Shown piece after piece: positions 40,311-56,011 of a DNA stretch of 64,000 nucleotides; the stretch's first letter is position 1; each line of letters starts with the position of its first letter. The notes under the pieces are model-generated. The model was not told the DNA's origin. It did not search any database and saw nothing but the letters and a program-made list of their open reading frames with translations. Both the position numbers and the translations under genes were made by a program. Location: the NCBI GenBank assembly GCA_963205295.1, contig CAUJIY010000013.1:1-64000 (forward strand), in the 5' to 3' direction. Source of the stretch: Pseudomonadota bacterium (GTDB taxonomy: Bacteria > Pseudomonadota > Gammaproteobacteria > Steroidobacterales > GCA-2729495).

Positions 40311-41066
40311 ATGAACGCTCCCGATCCGAAGTCCTACCAGGCCCGGCCCGACCTGCTCGCCGGTCGCGTCATCCTCGTCACCGGCGCCGGCGATGGCATC
40401 GGCCGCGCCGCTGCGACGAGCTTCGCCGCACACGGCGGCCAAGTGGTGCTGCTCGGCCGCACCACGTCGCGGCTGGAATCGCTCTACCAGGAGATCTGTG
40501 CCGCCGGCCACCCGGAGCCGGGCATCGCCGTGCTCGACCTCGCCCGTGCCCAGGGTCCGGCCTACTTCGATCTCGAGCGCCAGATCCGCGAGCGCTATGG
40601 ACGCCTCGACGGCCTGCTGCACAACGCCGGCATCCTCGGCGACCGTGCACCGCTCGAGCAGTACGATGTCGGCACCTGGACGCAGGTGCTGCACGTGAAC
40701 CTGACAGCACCGTTCGTGCTCACACAGGTGTTGCTGCCGTTGTTGCGCGCGTCGGCCGACGCCTCGGTGCTGTTCACGTCGAGCAGTGTCGGCCGTCGCG
40801 GCAAGGCCTACTGGGGCGCCTACGCCGTGTCGAAGTTCGGCCTCGAAGGACTGTCGCAGGTGCTCGCCGAAGAGACGCAGGGCACGACGCGCATCCGCGT
40901 CAATTGCCTCAACCCGGGTCCGACGCGCACCCGCATGCGCCGCCGGGCGTATCCGGGCGAACTGCCCGAGAGCCGGCCTGAGCCGGCGGCCATCCTTGCG
41001 CCTTATCTCTATCTCATGGGACCCGATAGCGCCGGCATCACCGGGCAGAGTCTCGACTGTCAATAA
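40311..41066 (+). CDS. yciK: YciK-family short-chain dehydrogenase/reductase
   Basis: A 251-residue SDR oxidoreductase. The cofactor loop is VILVTGAGDGIGRAAATSFA, followed by LHNAGILGDRAPLEQ and FTSSSVGRRGKAYWG. The catalytic YxxxK is in YAVSKFGLEGL. The substrate is unknown for the family. It is the last gene of the mtaD-ubiG block and ends just before an intrinsic terminator. Confidence 0.9.
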   Translation: MNAPDPKSYQARPDLLAGRVILVTGAGDGIGRAAATSFAAHGGQVVLLGRTTSRLESLYQEICAAGHPEPGIAVLDLARAQGPAYFDLERQIRERYGRLDGLLHNAGILGDRAPLEQYDVGTWTQVLHVNLTAPFVLTQVLLPLLRASADASVLFTSSSVGRRGKAYWGAYAVSKFGLEGLSQVLAEETQGTTRIRVNCLNPGPTRTRMRRRAYPGELPESRPEPAAILAPYLYLMGPDSAGITGQSLDCQ

Positions 41067-41075
41067 AGCTCTTTG

Positions 41076-41102
41076 ACAATAGTATTCAAACTATTGTTTT
41101 TT
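41076..41102 (+). terminator. Intrinsic terminator of the mtaD-yciK operon
   Basis: ACAATAG (41076-41082), loop TATTCAAA, CTATTGT (41091-41097), then a T run to 41102. The stem is AT-rich in a GC-rich genome. Its right arm contains the rluB stop codon read on the other strand (41093-41091), so the terminator and the convergent gene's end share bases. Confidence 0.75.
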
Positions 41103-41864
41103 CTTCGTTTTAATATCCCCTTGGATCGATGGGGTCACGCTGTCGTACAGGGCGCTGACCTCGGCAGCGCCGAGTTCGCGCCACCGGCCGCGCGGCAGGT
41201 GGCGCGGCAACGCGAGCGGTCCAAAGCGTACGCGGATCAGCCGGCTCACCTGGCAGCCCACCGCCTCCCAGAGACGGCGCACGATGCGGTTACGCCCTTC
41301 GGCGACGGTGACGCGATACCAGCGATTGGCGCCCTGCCCGCCTTCCGCCTGCACGCGGCCGAAGCGGCCGATACCGTCCTCGAGCGCGACGCCGGTACAC
41401 AGGAGGCGCAGCGACGCATCGTCGGGCTCGCCGCGCACACGCACCGCATACTCACGCTCAAGCCCCCCCGCCGGGTGCATCAGCGCGTTGGCGAGTTCGC
41501 CATCGGTGGTGAACAGCAGCAGCCCGGCGGTGTCGAGGTCGAGCCGCCCGACCATCACCCAGCGGCCGCCCCGCAGCGCCGGCAGGGCATCGAACACGCT
41601 CGGGCGACCCTCCGGATCCGAGCGTGTGCACACCTCGCCTGTCGGCTTGTGGTACAGCAACACGCGCGGTGACGGACGGTGGCGGCGTGTCGCCACGCGA
41701 ATGGCGCGCCCGTCGATGACGATGCGCTCGGTGCCGCTCACCTTCTGGCCCAGCACGGCCGGCTTGCCGTTGACCTTCACCCGCCCGGCGACGATCCAGT
41801 CCTCGATCTCGCGGCGCGAGCCGACACCGGCCGCGGCCAGCCACTTCTGCAGCCTCTCGGGCAC
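41091..41864 (-). CDS. rluB: Ribosomal large-subunit pseudouridine synthase B
   Basis: A 257-residue RsuA/RluB-type enzyme that isomerises a uridine in helix 80-90 region of 23S rRNA (U2605 in E. coli). The N-terminal S4 domain (ERLQKWLAAAGVGSRREIED) binds RNA. The catalytic Asp is in VMVGRLDLDTAGLLLFTTDG. EGRNRIVRRLWEAVG is typical of the C-terminus. A Lys-rich AT-rich tail ends KTKKKQ and overlaps a terminator. It follows scpB by 31 bases, the standard position of rluB. Confidence 0.94.
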   Translation of the reverse strand: MPERLQKWLAAAGVGSRREIEDWIVAGRVKVNGKPAVLGQKVSGTERIVIDGRAIRVATRRHRPSPRVLLYHKPTGEVCTRSDPEGRPSVFDALPALRGGRWVMVGRLDLDTAGLLLFTTDGELANALMHPAGGLEREYAVRVRGEPDDASLRLLCTGVALEDGIGRFGRVQAEGGQGANRWYRVTVAEGRNRIVRRLWEAVGCQVSRLIRVRFGPLALPRHLPRGRWRELGAAEVSALYDSVTPSIQGDIKTKKKQ

Positions 41865-51259: not shown

Positions 51260-51934
51260 TCAATGCCCCCTGGCCTCGCCCCACAGGTACTTGTGCAGCT
51301 GCACCTGGAAGCAGACGGGCAACCGGTCGGAGAGCAACCACTCGGCGAGCAGGCGCGGCTCGAGCCGGCCCCAGGCCGGCGACAGCAGCACGAGGCAGCG
51401 TGCGGCGAGATCATGCTCGCGCAGCATCGCGCGGCTCCACTCGTAGTCGGCGCGATCGGCGACGACGAACTTGACCTGATCGTGCGCCCGCAACAGCGCC
51501 AGGTTCGCCTGGCGATTGCGGTGGCTCTCGCCCGACGACGGCGTCTTCAGGTCCATCACCACGGTGACACGCGGGTCGATCCCGGCGATGTCGAGCGCGC
51601 CGCTGGTCTCGATCTGCACGGCGTGGCCCGCCTCGCAGAGTTCGCGCAGCAGCTGCCGGCACTCGGGCTGGGCGAGCGGCTCGCCGCCGGTGACACAGAC
51701 GTGGCGGGTGCCGAAAGCGGCCACCTCGGCGAGGATGGCCGCAACCGTGTGCAGGCGCCCGCCGCTGAACGCGTAGGCGGTATCGCAGTACGTGCAGCGC
51801 AGCGGGCAGCCGGTGAGGCGCACGAACACGGTCGGCTGGCCGACGGTGCTCGACTCGCCCTGGATCGAGCAGAAGATCTCGGTGATGCGCAGCTCAGCCT
51901 GGCGCGGCGCGGGGGCGTCTGCTGGCTCGGTCAT
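51260..51934 (-). CDS. queE: 7-carboxy-7-deazaguanine synthase
   Basis: A 224-residue radical-SAM enzyme that contracts the pterin ring to form 7-carboxy-7-deazaguanine. The 4Fe-4S motif CxxxCxxC is in [19 protein letters not shown]. Before it is [20 protein letters not shown], after it [18 protein letters not shown], both typical. ATG 51934 is preferred to the in-frame GTG at 51940. It lies 22 bases after cpoB and precedes queC. queD and queF are not in this window. Confidence 0.94.
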
Positions 51935-51956
51935 GGGCACGCGGCCTGTCAGGCCG

Positions 51957-52754
51957 TCAGTGGCCCTCGCTCGCCATCACCTGCAGGCGTTGGCCGGCAA
52001 GGCGCGCGGCCGTGGTCTCGGCGTAGTTCTGTACCACCGTCTGCAGCGCCTTGCGCGCTGCCTCGTAACGCTTGAGCTCGTAGTTGCAGTAGCCCATCTT
52101 GAGCAGGGCGTCCGGCATCTTGCGCGATTGCGGAAAACGCGCCACAACGACTTCGAACTCCGGCAGTGCTTCCTTGTACTTCTGCGTCACGTAGTAGCTC
52201 TCGCCGAGCCAGTACTGGGCGTTGTCGGCGAGCTTACTCTGCGGAAACGCGGCGAGGAACTGCCGGAAGGCGAGCGAGGCCTGGTCGTAGCGGCCCTGCT
52301 TGAGCAGCTCGAATGCAGCCTGGTAATTGGCGCGATCACCGCCACCGGGAACCGGCAGCTGGCCGGGCGCCAGCGAACCGCCCTCGAGCACCGACTTGCC
52401 GGGCTCGGTGCGCAAGCCGGCGCTGAGCCGCTGCTCCATCGCCTGCAGCCGCTGGTCGAGGTCGAGATACAACTGGCGCTGGCGTTCTCCGCCCTGGTCC
52501 TGCGCGTTGCGCAGCGTCTCGACCTCGTTGCGAAGTGTGGCGTTTTCCTTCCGCAGCTGCTCGAGCTCGCCGACCAGGTTCATGATTCCCTGGTTGTCGA
52601 CGATGCGCTCGACCTTCACCAGGCGGTTGTCGATCTCCACCTGCTTGAGGTAGACCGGATCCTCCTCGGGCGGCACCATCATCTGGCAGCCGCCGAGGAT
52701 CGCGGCGAGGGCAAACCCCGCCGCAGCCGGCAGTATTCGCGGCGCGTGTCTCAT
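51957..52754 (-). CDS. cpoB: Cell division coordinator CpoB (YbgF)
   Basis: A 265-residue periplasmic protein linking Tol-Pal to peptidoglycan synthesis at the septum. An N-terminal signal ends in ILGGC, a lipobox-like site (Cys23), whereas E. coli CpoB is soluble. Residues 40-115 form the trimerising coiled coil (LVGELEQLRKENATLRNEVE). Residues 140-265 hold three TPR units (YQAAFELLKQGRYDQASLAF, AQYWLGESYYVTQKYKEALP). It starts 7 bases after pal. Confidence 0.92.
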   Translation of the reverse strand: MRHAPRILPAAAGFALAAILGGCQMMVPPEEDPVYLKQVEIDNRLVKVERIVDNQGIMNLVGELEQLRKENATLRNEVETLRNAQDQGGERQRQLYLDLDQRLQAMEQRLSAGLRTEPGKSVLEGGSLAPGQLPVPGGGDRANYQAAFELLKQGRYDQASLAFRQFLAAFPQSKLADNAQYWLGESYYVTQKYKEALPEFEVVVARFPQSRKMPDALLKMGYCNYELKRYEAARKALQTVVQNYAETTAARLAGQRLQVMASEGH

Positions 52755-52761
52755 GCCTGCC

Positions 52762-53301
52762 TCAGGGCGCGTAGACGATCTCGACGCGGCGGTTCAGCGC
52801 CCACGACTCCTCGTCGCTGCTGGTGACGGCCGGGCGCTCCTCGCCGTAGCTCACGGTGGCGAGCTGGCTCGCACCGGCACCCTGCAGCAGCAACGCCTGG
52901 CGCACGGCCTGGGCACGTCGCTCGCCGAGACCGATGTTGTACTCACGGCTGCCGCGCTCGTCGGCATGGCCTTCGAGGCGCACGCGCGTGCCGGGGTTGG
53001 CCGCGAGATAGCGGCCGTGGGCGGCGACGATCTCGCGGAATTCAGCCTTGATCTCGTCACGGTCGAAATCGAAGTACACGGTACGGTTGCGCACCGACGC
53101 CCGGGGACCCGCCGCCGCCGAGTCATCGAATGCCGCGCCCTGGCCGGCACCGGCTTCGCTCACCCCGCCCGCCTGCGCACCCGGCGCCGGCTGGCCCTCG
53201 TAGGTGCCGTAACCGAGATCGTCCTGTTCCTTCGCGCCCTTGCCGGCACAACCGGCCAGCACAGCCGCGACCAGCACCAGGATCAGACTCATCGAACGCA
53301 T
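52762..53301 (-). CDS. pal: Peptidoglycan-associated lipoprotein Pal
   Basis: A 179-residue outer-membrane lipoprotein. The signal ends in the lipobox VLAGC (Cys18). A Gly/Ala-rich linker leads to an OmpA-like domain (about residues 68-179) with TVYFDFDRDEIKAEF and LEGHADERGSREYNIGLGER, the meso-DAP-binding region. Pal with TolB and TolQRA drives outer-membrane constriction at division. AGAGGTGA lies just before the ATG. It is separated from tolB by an AT-rich stretch containing an intrinsic-terminator-like hairpin, so its level may be set apart from the upstream genes. Confidence 0.96.
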   Translation of the reverse strand: MRSMSLILVLVAAVLAGCAGKGAKEQDDLGYGTYEGQPAPGAQAGGVSEAGAGQGAAFDDSAAAGPRASVRNRTVYFDFDRDEIKAEFREIVAAHGRYLAANPGTRVRLEGHADERGSREYNIGLGERRAQAVRQALLLQGAGASQLATVSYGEERPAVTSSDEESWALNRRVEIVYAP

Positions 53302-53326
53302 GTGATCACCTCTGCCACAAAATCAT

Positions 53327-53348
53327 AAAAAATGGAGGTTTACTCCAT
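53327..53348 (-). terminator. Intrinsic terminator-like hairpin between tolB and pal
   Basis: On the minus strand ATGGAG (53348-53343), loop TAAAC, CTCCAT (53337-53332), then a run of Ts to 53327. The stem is only 6 bp but the T tract is clear and it sits in a short AT-rich island in a GC-rich genome, 17 bases after the tolB stop codon. The same island has -10-like hexamers (TACAAT, TATGAT), so a pal promoter is also possible. Confidence 0.6.
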
Positions 53349-53365
53349 AACTCATTGTAACTCAA

Positions 53366-54667
53366 TCAATTCGTCCTGAAAGGAGACCAGGCTGGCTCAC
53401 GCACGTCACCCTCCATGGCCGGAATGCGCTGGCGGACGCGACCATCGGCCGACACCGTGGCGAGCACGCCCCGCCCGCCCTCGCGGGTGGCATAGATCAG
53501 CGTTTCGCCGTTCGGCGCAAAGCTCGGCGACTCGTCCTGTCGCCCTTCGGTAAGGACCTGGCTGAACCCGCGCTCCAGATCGACGAGCGCGATTCTATAG
53601 TTCCCGCGGTCGTTGGTCACGACGGCGAGACGCTTGCCGTCGGGCGCGACGCGCGGGCGGGCGTTGTAGCCGCCCTCGAAGGTCACCCGCTGCGCGGAAC
53701 CGCCGCCGGCCGGCACGCGGTAGACCTGCGGGCCGCCGGCCCTGTCGGAGGTGAAGTAGACCGTCCCACCGTCACGCGACCACGCGGCCTCGGTGTCGAT
53801 CGAGCGCGGCTCGGTCAGCCGCGTGAGCGCCTGGCTGGCAAGATCGAGGGTGTACACATCGAGGTTGCCTTCGCCGCGCGAAAGCGTCAGGGCGAGCCGG
53901 CGGCCGTCGGGCGACCAGGCCGGCGCACCATTGACACCGGGGCGTGCCGAAACCTTCTGCCGCGCGCCGGAACGCAGCGTCTGCACGTAGACCTCGGCGT
54001 GCTTGTTCTCGAACGACACGTAGGCGAGCTTGCGCCCATCCGGCGACCAGGCGGGCGACATGATCGGCTCGCGCGATTCGACCATGACCTGCTCGTTGGC
54101 ACCGTCGGCATCGGCGATCACCAGCCGGTACTGCTCGCCGCGTGCCCCGCGCGCGGCCGTCACGTAGGCGATGCGCGTAGCGAAGATGCCAGGCACGCCG
54201 GTCAGCTTCTCGTAGATCATGTCGGCCACGCGATGGCTGCTGAGGCGCAACGCCGCCTGCGCCGACGGCAGGCGGTAGCCGAGCAGCTGCTCGCCGCGCA
54301 GCACGTCGAAGAGCTGGAACTGGATGGTGAACTCCCCGGGCGCGGCCGGCCGCAGCCGGCCGACGACGACGGCCTCGACGCCGAGCGTCTTCCAGTCCTG
54401 GAAGTCGATGTCGGCCCCGCCCGTCGGCCGCTGTACCAGGTCGCGCTCGGGCAGTGGTTCGAAACGTCCCGTGCCCGCCAGGTCGCGCGCCACGACAGCG
54501 GCCACGTCGAGCGGCGGCGCACCCGGCCCGTCCCAGCCGAACGGCACGATGGCCACCGGCATGGGGCGCTCGGCGCCGCGGCTGATTTCGATGCGCAGCT
54601 CGGCCTGCGCACCGCAAGCCACCAGCGCGCCGATCAATGCCCATAGCGGGCGCATCCGCTTGTGCAT
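53366..54667 (-). CDS. tolB: Tol-Pal system beta-propeller protein TolB
   Basis: A 433-residue periplasmic protein. A signal peptide (LWALIGALVACGAQA) precedes the N-terminal domain (ELRIEISRGAERPMPVAIVP, DWKTLGVEAVVVGRL). A six-bladed propeller follows, whose WSPDGRKLAY-type repeats recur (SPAWSPDGRKLAYVSF, APAWSPDGRRLALTL). TolB binds Pal and the TolA C-terminus. ATG 54667 begins MHKRMRPLW; an upstream start would push the signal peptide inward. It follows tolA by 66 bases. Confidence 0.96.
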   Translation of the reverse strand: MHKRMRPLWALIGALVACGAQAELRIEISRGAERPMPVAIVPFGWDGPGAPPLDVAAVVARDLAGTGRFEPLPERDLVQRPTGGADIDFQDWKTLGVEAVVVGRLRPAAPGEFTIQFQLFDVLRGEQLLGYRLPSAQAALRLSSHRVADMIYEKLTGVPGIFATRIAYVTAARGARGEQYRLVIADADGANEQVMVESREPIMSPAWSPDGRKLAYVSFENKHAEVYVQTLRSGARQKVSARPGVNGAPAWSPDGRRLALTLSRGEGNLDVYTLDLASQALTRLTEPRSIDTEAAWSRDGGTVYFTSDRAGGPQVYRVPAGGGSAQRVTFEGGYNARPRVAPDGKRLAVVTNDRGNYRIALVDLERGFSQVLTEGRQDESPSFAPNGETLIYATREGGRGVLATVSADGRVRQRIPAMEGDVREPAWSPFRTN

Positions 54668-54733
54668 GCGCGTTCCCCGATCCGGTCCGTGAGGGCGGCT
54701 ATTGTCGCCAGCTGGAGCCAATGCGCAAGCGCC

Positions 54734-55552
54734 TCAGTCGCGGGGCCGGAATTCGAACCGCAGGCTGCGATCGAACAGCTTCGGGTCCGGCGGCGGCGGC
54801 AACGGCGAGGCGCGCAGCACCGCGGCCTCGATCGAGCGCACCACGGCGGCATCCCCGTTGCACTCCGTCACCTTCACGTCGACCACATCACCGCCTGGAA
54901 TCTGCTTCACCAGCACCACGCAAGCGATGCCCTGCCGGGCACTCGCCGGCCGGATCCAGTTGCGCTCCACCTTCTGGCGGATCACCTCCGCATACTGGTC
55001 GAGCAGGCCCGCATCGGCAGCGGCGAGCAGATCCTCCTCCTCGGCGAGCTGGCGGGCCAGTTCAGCCTGGCTCTGGGCGCGACGGCGCTCGGCCTCGGCC
55101 TTGCTGCGGCTTTCGGCTGCTGCCCTGGCCTCGCGCTGCTCGCGCTCCTTCTGGGCCTGGCGCTCGACCTCGGCCTTGCGGCGCGTCTCGGCCGCCCGCC
55201 GTTCCTGGTCGGCCCTGGCCTGGCGTTCAGCCTCCGCCTTGCGGCTCTCGATTTCGGCTTGCCGGCGCCGCTCGTCCTGCTCCTGGCGCTCGGCCTGCTG
55301 GCGCAGCCGCTCGGCTGCGAGCCGGGCGTCGCGCTCGCGCCGCTCGGCTTCGGCAGCGCGCTGGCGCAGCGCGCGGGCGTCGACCACGGTGGCCTGGATG
55401 GCGAGGCGAACCGGCTGCGGCTCGCGCTGCGGTGCGAAGCTCAGGTTGAGCGCCAGCAGCACCAGCAGCCCGACGTGCAGCAGCAGCGAACCGCCGAGCA
55501 CCGGGGCGTGCTCACGCAGGAAGGTGGACGGCAGGATCCCGGCGCGGCTCAT
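54734..55552 (-). CDS. tolA: Cell envelope protein TolA
   Basis: A 272-residue protein spanning the periplasm. One membrane helix (PVLGGSLLLHVGLLVLLALN, about residues 18-40) is followed by a long charged helix rich in Ala, Glu, Arg and Gln (about 60-170). The C-terminal TonB-like domain (about 180-272) contains YAEVIRQKVERNWIRPASA and ends LRFEFRPRD. E. coli TolA is 421 residues, so the periplasmic helix here is much shorter. It lies 16 bases after tolR. Confidence 0.94.
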   Translation of the reverse strand: MSRAGILPSTFLREHAPVLGGSLLLHVGLLVLLALNLSFAPQREPQPVRLAIQATVVDARALRQRAAEAERRERDARLAAERLRQQAERQEQDERRRQAEIESRKAEAERQARADQERRAAETRRKAEVERQAQKEREQREARAAAESRSKAEAERRRAQSQAELARQLAEEEDLLAAADAGLLDQYAEVIRQKVERNWIRPASARQGIACVVLVKQIPGGDVVDVKVTECNGDAAVVRSIEAAVLRASPLPPPPDPKLFDRSLRFEFRPRD

Positions 55553-55568
55553 GCGCAGGCGTTACCTG

Positions 55569-56011
<443 letters not shown>

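Follow-up and report, generated by a model that had tools for sequence, protein, structure and literature searches.

Introduction

In Escherichia coli, Pal is more abundant than its partner motor proteins. According to a 2017 paper, E. coli and Pseudomonas putida were the only species for which the operon structure of the tol-pal genes had been determined; passages of it describe the E. coli cluster as split by an internal promoter into ybgC-tolQRA and tolB-pal-ybgF, and that of P. putida as the separate units ybgC-tolQRAB and pal-ybgF, the latter citing Llamas 2003 (PMC5479800). A review (PMC7391070) does not use the word promoter in its main text, and no report of a pal promoter inside tolB was found among titles, the opening parts of abstracts and some passages of papers, mostly those outside subscription journals. 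Separate transcription of pal is already known; the promoter-like element described here, kept family-wide in tolB codons, is a new instance as far as our searches show. Intercistronic stem-loops of a well-known kind set mRNA stability in malE-malF and papBA, according to passages of PMC5927463, and the title of an entry in its reference list indicates the same for puf.

The locus analysed here would resemble that of P. putida, as partly described, in having pal and ybgF (cpoB) as a unit apart from the motor genes and tolB; by comparison, the element here lies within tolB, linked to codons that a single family conserves. As in the available description of E. coli, an internal promoter would subdivide the cluster, although in E. 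coli the split comes before tolB; E. coli TolB has a different peptide at the site of the element, and its 34-nt tolB-pal gap has no such hairpin by eye. The hairpin in the gap is, like those of malE-malF and papBA, a small stem-loop between operon genes, and 5' structures of the papBA type are described as protecting the downstream gene. The stem here is small and limited to part of one genus.

Results

Organization of the locus and its AT-rich gap

The stretch of DNA analysed (the window, 64 kb) carries a tol-pal locus of which nine proteins all exceed the cut-offs of curated NCBIfam models. The features needed for what follows are:

53366..54667, minus strand: tolB coding sequence (NCBIfam TIGR02800, 503.6 bits, above the cut-off, over 53366-54664)
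53302..53365, minus strand: tolB-pal gap, an AT-rich island of 64 nt, GC 0.36 (sequence, composition)
53354..53359, minus strand: TACAAT, a -10-like hexamer within the island, changed in the sister species (comparison with sister L083)
53332..53348, minus strand: hairpin ATGGAG-TAAAC-CTCCAT, -5.8 kcal/mol (folding of the hairpin alone)
53327..53331, minus strand: TTTTT, the unpaired part of the T-run 3' of the hairpin (sequence)
53306..53313, minus strand: pal ribosome-binding site, AGAGGTGA (sequence)
52762..53301, minus strand: pal coding sequence, peptidoglycan-associated lipoprotein (NCBIfam TIGR02802, 140.4 bits, above the cut-off)
51957..52754, minus strand: cpoB (ybgF) coding sequence, 7 nt 3' of pal (NCBIfam TIGR02795, 126.6 bits, above the cut-off)

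We took the ATG at 54667..54665 as the tolB start, with the stop codon at 53368..53366; the pal start codon is the ATG at 53301..53299. Within the pal ribosome-binding site, the bases of AGAGG have predicted unpaired probabilities of 0.66-0.84 each.

The preliminary description of this DNA had singled out an AT-rich stretch, unusual in a GC-rich window, that holds a 6-bp hairpin followed by about six Ts, and both observations held: the gap is 36% GC against 69% for the window, the arms ATGGAG (53348..53343) and CTCCAT (53337..53332) match exactly around the loop TAAAC, and the T-run occupies 53332..53327, one of its Ts being paired. The 50-mer starting at 53317 has a GC of 0.28, and 50-mers within 0.06 of that value form two clusters in the 64-kb window, one in the gap and one at 41046-41133, the only other dip of similar depth (GC 0.24 over 50 nt). 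For the 86 nt around the hairpin, folding is at the level of shuffles (z -0.16).

A promoter-like element inside tolB is conserved at the DNA level

A candidate promoter, GTGACC-17 bp-TAGAAT (53620..53592, minus strand), lies inside tolB about 230 nt upstream of the island. Its two parts are:

53615..53620, minus strand: -35-like hexamer GTGACC inside tolB (promoter scan; conservation)
53592..53599, minus strand: -10-like TATAGAAT inside tolB, codons TAT AGA ATC, with the hexamer TAGAAT at 53597..53592 (conservation)

The -10 hexamer resembles TATAAT and has the A of position 2 and the T of position 6. The -35 is poor by consensus: GTGACC matches TTGACA at four of six positions within the genus, and most of the remaining family has GTGCAT or GTGCAC (two of six). 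From the end of the -10 to the pal ATG there are 290 nt in the window (268-323 nt, median 290, in 34 rows of the alignment described below), and about the last 75 codons of tolB lie downstream of the element. A consensus scan of 10.5 kb returned GTGACC-17-TAGAAT as its sole match, one against 0.7 in shuffles, so that the match alone is no evidence for a promoter in tolB. The element, scoring 9.78, was the best site in nine of the ten loci of the genus, and because the same top score recurred in these nine, a codon-level comparison was undertaken.

TATARAAT in an NDRG context was found in 38 of the 40 genomes of the family, with all nine genera represented, and none of 256 other genomes of the order, a sample of a larger group, had it; the order-wide pattern also requires the peptide context, and its absence elsewhere is therefore partly protein change. 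Genome G027 (72% complete) is not assessable, its pal contig beginning downstream of the site. A codon alignment of 36 rows was drawn from the 40 family genomes: L138 was left out because its pal frame is interrupted, L134 (G020) and L137 (G027) have too little tolB, and G037 has the element but no locus in the alignment. A set of 34 rows was taken from 36, L091 and L137 having no match. The frame interruption in L138 (G021) is an in-frame TAA inside the pal match, possibly a sequencing error or a sign of a pseudogene.

The site follows the codon pattern GTG-xxx-AAY-GAY-MGN-GGN-xxx-TAT-AGA-ATY, in which the wobble bases of the spacer vary and GTG, TAT and AGA scarcely do. Across the 36 rows, AGA, the rarest arginine codon in tolB of the family, encodes the -10 arginine in 33 of 34 Arg rows, compared with 33 of 1531 other tolB arginines, and neither AGG nor CGA, each one synonymous step from AGA, occurs at this arginine. 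The tyrosine of the -10 is TAT in 35 of 36 rows (144 of 423 elsewhere), and 35 of 36 likewise have GTG for the -35 valine (usage 49.5%). When L138, whose site reads TATAGAATT, is added to this alignment, which was not selected for the motif, both TATARAAT and GTG are present in 36 of 37 rows, L091 being the exception in both. Because the rows share ancestry, binomial figures cannot be taken as true probabilities, and rank was relied on instead. The AGA column ranks first of 257 tolB columns (45.4; the next, 14.3, is the adjoining TAT) and first of 1071 columns in eight genes from tolQ to queC (22-25 sequences per gene; 1.73 against 0.77 for the next, mean 0.18, s.d. 0.097). Averages over nine codons also place the element first but less sharply, at 0.27 versus 0.24 for another stretch of tolB with five scored columns. 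The third base of the -35, the wobble position of GTG, is G in 34 of 34 rows (2.0 bits); over 100 nt, the other wobble bases that lie outside the motif used for selection reach at most 1.57 bits. These rows were picked for having the -10, and two of the fixed wobble bases in them are fixed by that selection.

In L127 and L129 lysine replaces arginine with TATAAAAT kept and TAAAAT as the hexamer, still a -10, whereas L091 (G005), of the same genus and the sole family genome seen with a changed site, has GTC, TAC and CGC, the three marks having been lost together. Outside the family, loci with a DRGxYR peptide have CGN in 12 of 12 and TAC in 10 of 12. These comparisons show a constraint on the element that acts on the DNA and goes beyond the protein. 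We infer that the element is a promoter from its constrained -35 third base and -10, its freer 17-bp spacer and their joint loss in one species; its direction and position would make pal-cpoB the target.

A separate observation concerns the tolA-tolB gap, which holds TTGCGC-16-GACAAT (54728..54723 and 54706..54701, minus strand), kept in L002 and present as TTGCAC-16-AACAAT in L006. Other family loci (e.g. L008, L009, L014, L016 and L034) have TTGCGC-16-AAGAAT or TTGCGC-16-AACAAT at the tolA 3' end instead, where Leu TTG ranks second in constraint among the 1071 codon columns. An element of this TTGCGC-16 type near the tolA/tolB junction is a possible tolB promoter.

A small stem recurs in the gap within part of the genus

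Gap comparisons covered 36 gaps, ten from the genus and 26 from other genera (L138 was excluded, and no pal start was obtained for L140). An RYGGA-loop-TCCRY stem lies 15-18 nt after the tolB stop in six of the ten genus genomes (L082, L083, L086, L087, L088 and L090), which belong to two clades of the tolB+pal tree; it is missing in the other four genus gaps, and one of the 26 gaps from other genera has it. The preliminary description had proposed looking for the hairpin in relatives, and a related stem is found in some of them, whereas the T-run after it is confined to one of the ten genomes. Among the six stems, pairs are exchanged between A-T and G-C and among T-A, C-G and T-G, the last pair being G-T in L088, where the stem is weak (-1.4 kcal/mol). 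The sister stem in L083, GTGGAG-ATAAC-CTCCAC, has G-C for the outer A-T pair. A MAFFT alignment of the six gaps placed the two AT-rich rows away from the remaining four; we set it aside and aligned the stem manually. Such a stem arises in 1-18% of shuffles of the six stem-bearing gaps. At fourfold sites the window and its sister are 59% identical in tolB and 58% in pal, compared with 22 of 26 positions in the block around the stem, a hand-picked 26-nt block that, like the stem motif, was defined after inspection.

It might be that the hairpin has no function, being an inverted repeat that arose by chance or is decaying in a gap that changes fast, and that only the tolB element matters. Gap length and GC do vary widely across genomes, the stem is missing in four of the ten genus genomes, and neither these four gaps nor the 26 from other genera (z -1.7 to +1.6) fold better than shuffles. 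What such a reading leaves unaccounted for is a stem that persists with compensating changes in two clades, although the window is only 52-60% identical to the other five stem bearers at fourfold sites, and folding z values of -1.9 in the window, -2.8 in L083, -2.5 in L086, -2.4 in L087 and -1.7 in L090 (albeit -0.5 in L088). We consider a functionless hairpin possible but somewhat doubtful. A clade-limited RNA stem under structural constraint is plausible on this moderate evidence, and the recurrence of the stem with compensating changes is a better fit to an mRNA structure than to a terminator.

Several other identities for the hairpin were considered. No known RNA family was found at it: a search of 51900-56000 against Rfam 15 with E up to 1 gave a single match, to a microRNA model at 51900-51990, with 22.5 bits where the gathering score is 100. 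A dispersed, REP-like repeat was rejected, TGGAGN4CCTCCA occurring once in its own genome and once in the sister, both times in the tolB-pal gap; CGGATGGTCCG, the core of the other stems of the genus, is no commoner than its reversed control in eight pooled genomes. An anti-Shine-Dalgarno switch, in which ACCTC of the 3' arm would pair with GAGGT of the pal ribosome-binding site, was rejected at a pairing probability of at most 0.003, and a mini-ORF from an ATG 3' of the T-run was rejected by eye, the sister having no such ATG.

Possible cleavage or pausing at the tolB element

Synonymous conservation is a DNA or RNA constraint that is compatible with a promoter, an RNase site or an effect on codon rate. 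TATARAAT could be kept for a reason other than initiation, either as a site of RNase E-type cleavage that frees pal mRNA or as a slow-codon pause. It is AU-rich in an otherwise GC-rich mRNA, AGA is a rare codon, and RNase E cleavage in the upstream gene, 5' of a structure, is described for some E. coli operons as stabilising the downstream gene (passages of PMC5927463). A rare-codon role, however, explains neither the change of AGA to AAA (Lys) with TATAAAAT kept, nor the fixed TAT, nor the G at the -35 wobble position, and cleavage leaves that fixed G, 17 bp away, unexplained. Both are unlikely as the reason for the conservation.

The gap hairpin and the island hexamers

In the preliminary description the hairpin and T-run were read as a partial intrinsic terminator after tolB, with the -10-like hexamers of the island starting a pal transcript. 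Like intrinsic (Rho-independent) terminators, the gap hairpin has a G-C-containing stem with a T-run at once behind it. A loose terminator scan of 10.5 kb was at chance level (three sites against 3.1 in shuffles), and a strict pattern, requiring a perfect stem of at least six pairs with at least three G-C and at least six Ts in eight, was found once in the 64-kb window, for which 20 shuffles of its whole length gave 0.25 on average, and turned up in 5 of 5000 shuffled versions of the gap. Strong intrinsic terminators usually have stems well below -8 kcal/mol; that of the window, with three of six pairs G-C, has a borderline -5.8, and its U-run is uninterrupted. A terminator score was likewise borderline in the window, at -4.0 if the stem is taken as 6 bp and +1.0 if it is taken as 5 bp; the five relatives scored gave values between -26 and -69. 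The T-run is found in the window species alone among the ten genus genomes, or in one of the six stem bearers: the bases after the stem in L083 are ATATTC, the L089 gap has nine Ts but no such stem, and the longest T-run in the remaining eight is at most four.

Unlike intrinsic terminators, the hairpin combines a weak stem with an unconserved T-run and is preceded in its leader by the conserved promoter-like element. With this element upstream of the hairpin, efficient termination in the gap would also cut the transcript from tolB. The gap hairpin is most likely not an efficient terminator, and the case for the partial terminator proposed at first is weak.

The island does contain -10-like hexamers, TACAAT (53359..53354) and TATGAT (53327..53322, both minus strand), but neither has a good -35 and the consensus scan reported no promoter in the island. 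The best island site, TACAAT with CTTTCA at 17 bp, scores 7.33 with a set of promoter weights; 0.9% of 2130 stretches from both strands of the window score at least as high, as do 2.3% of 86 stretches from its own locus. The sister L083 has TTCAAT and TCTGAT in place of the two hexamers, and the island was rejected as a conserved promoter. The best gap site of L083 lies elsewhere (CATATT, score 5.8, top 3.5% of its own locus), and L091, which has no tolB element, has a gap candidate AAAAAT scoring 6.11 at nearly the same offset as that of the window. These gap candidates and the strict stem with its immediate T-run are on the side of termination after tolB and re-initiation in the island; against the strongly negative scores and absent T-runs of relatives, the low stem energy, the loss of the hexamers in the sister and the conserved element upstream, it is decidedly unlikely.

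A different pattern, TGGYARWAD, was seen in some tolB-pal gaps of an 80-locus set, of which 79 loci are in a codon alignment (L077 has no tolB), 23 with the tolB element and 56 without. This extended -10-like pattern, chosen after inspection, occurs in 9 of the 56 gaps without the element (L020, L036, L053, L054, L055, L057, L063, L064 and L069), with 0.32 expected from shuffles, and in 1 of the 23 with it (0.17 expected). Loci L002-L081 and the genomes with G handles partly overlap, e.g. L002 and L083 have the same gap, as do L007 and L091. In the loci without the tolB element that have TGGYARWAD, pal may have its own promoter in the gap instead of in tolB.

Discussion

What we observe directly is that the tolB element is conserved at the DNA level and that the gap stem exists and recurs; our interpretation is that this element serves as a promoter and drives pal, and that the stem has a role. 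Taken together, these data are probably best explained by uncoupling of pal and cpoB from ybgC-tolQRA through a promoter embedded in tolB, with the gap hairpin as a small intercistronic stem-loop. An internal promoter separating pal and cpoB from the motor genes had been suggested beforehand, and that idea gains support, its conserved candidate lying inside tolB (53620..53592) and not in the island.

According to this explanation, a housekeeping-type promoter, GTGACC-17-TAGAAT, in the tolB coding sequence would separate pal and cpoB from ybgC-tolQRA. The transcript would run from the last ~75 codons of tolB through the AT-rich gap into pal and cpoB, and the hairpin would lie within both the pal leader and the operon mRNA, where it would most likely act as an RNase barrier after cleavage or as a site of mild pausing or attenuation. 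An extension of the same scheme, which we regard as rather unlikely, is that a codon-locked pal promoter throughout the family has been joined in this species by a new T-run at an older leader stem-loop, making an attenuator; the ratio of Pal to TolB would then be set after both promoters, that of the operon and the internal one, have fired.

A codon-locked promoter would limit the codons and the amino acids, Arg or Lys, available at its site in TolB, and a regulatory signal could in this way keep a rare codon from changing in GC-rich genomes. The hairpin, for its part, illustrates that an eye-catching structure beside a gene need not be the control element of that gene. The start of pal transcription in L091 (G005), where the tolB element has been lost and the gap candidate scores 6.11, would be informative. 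If the element is the promoter that we propose, its retention in tolB throughout the family would be a direct and testable answer to how unequal output is obtained from one gene cluster.
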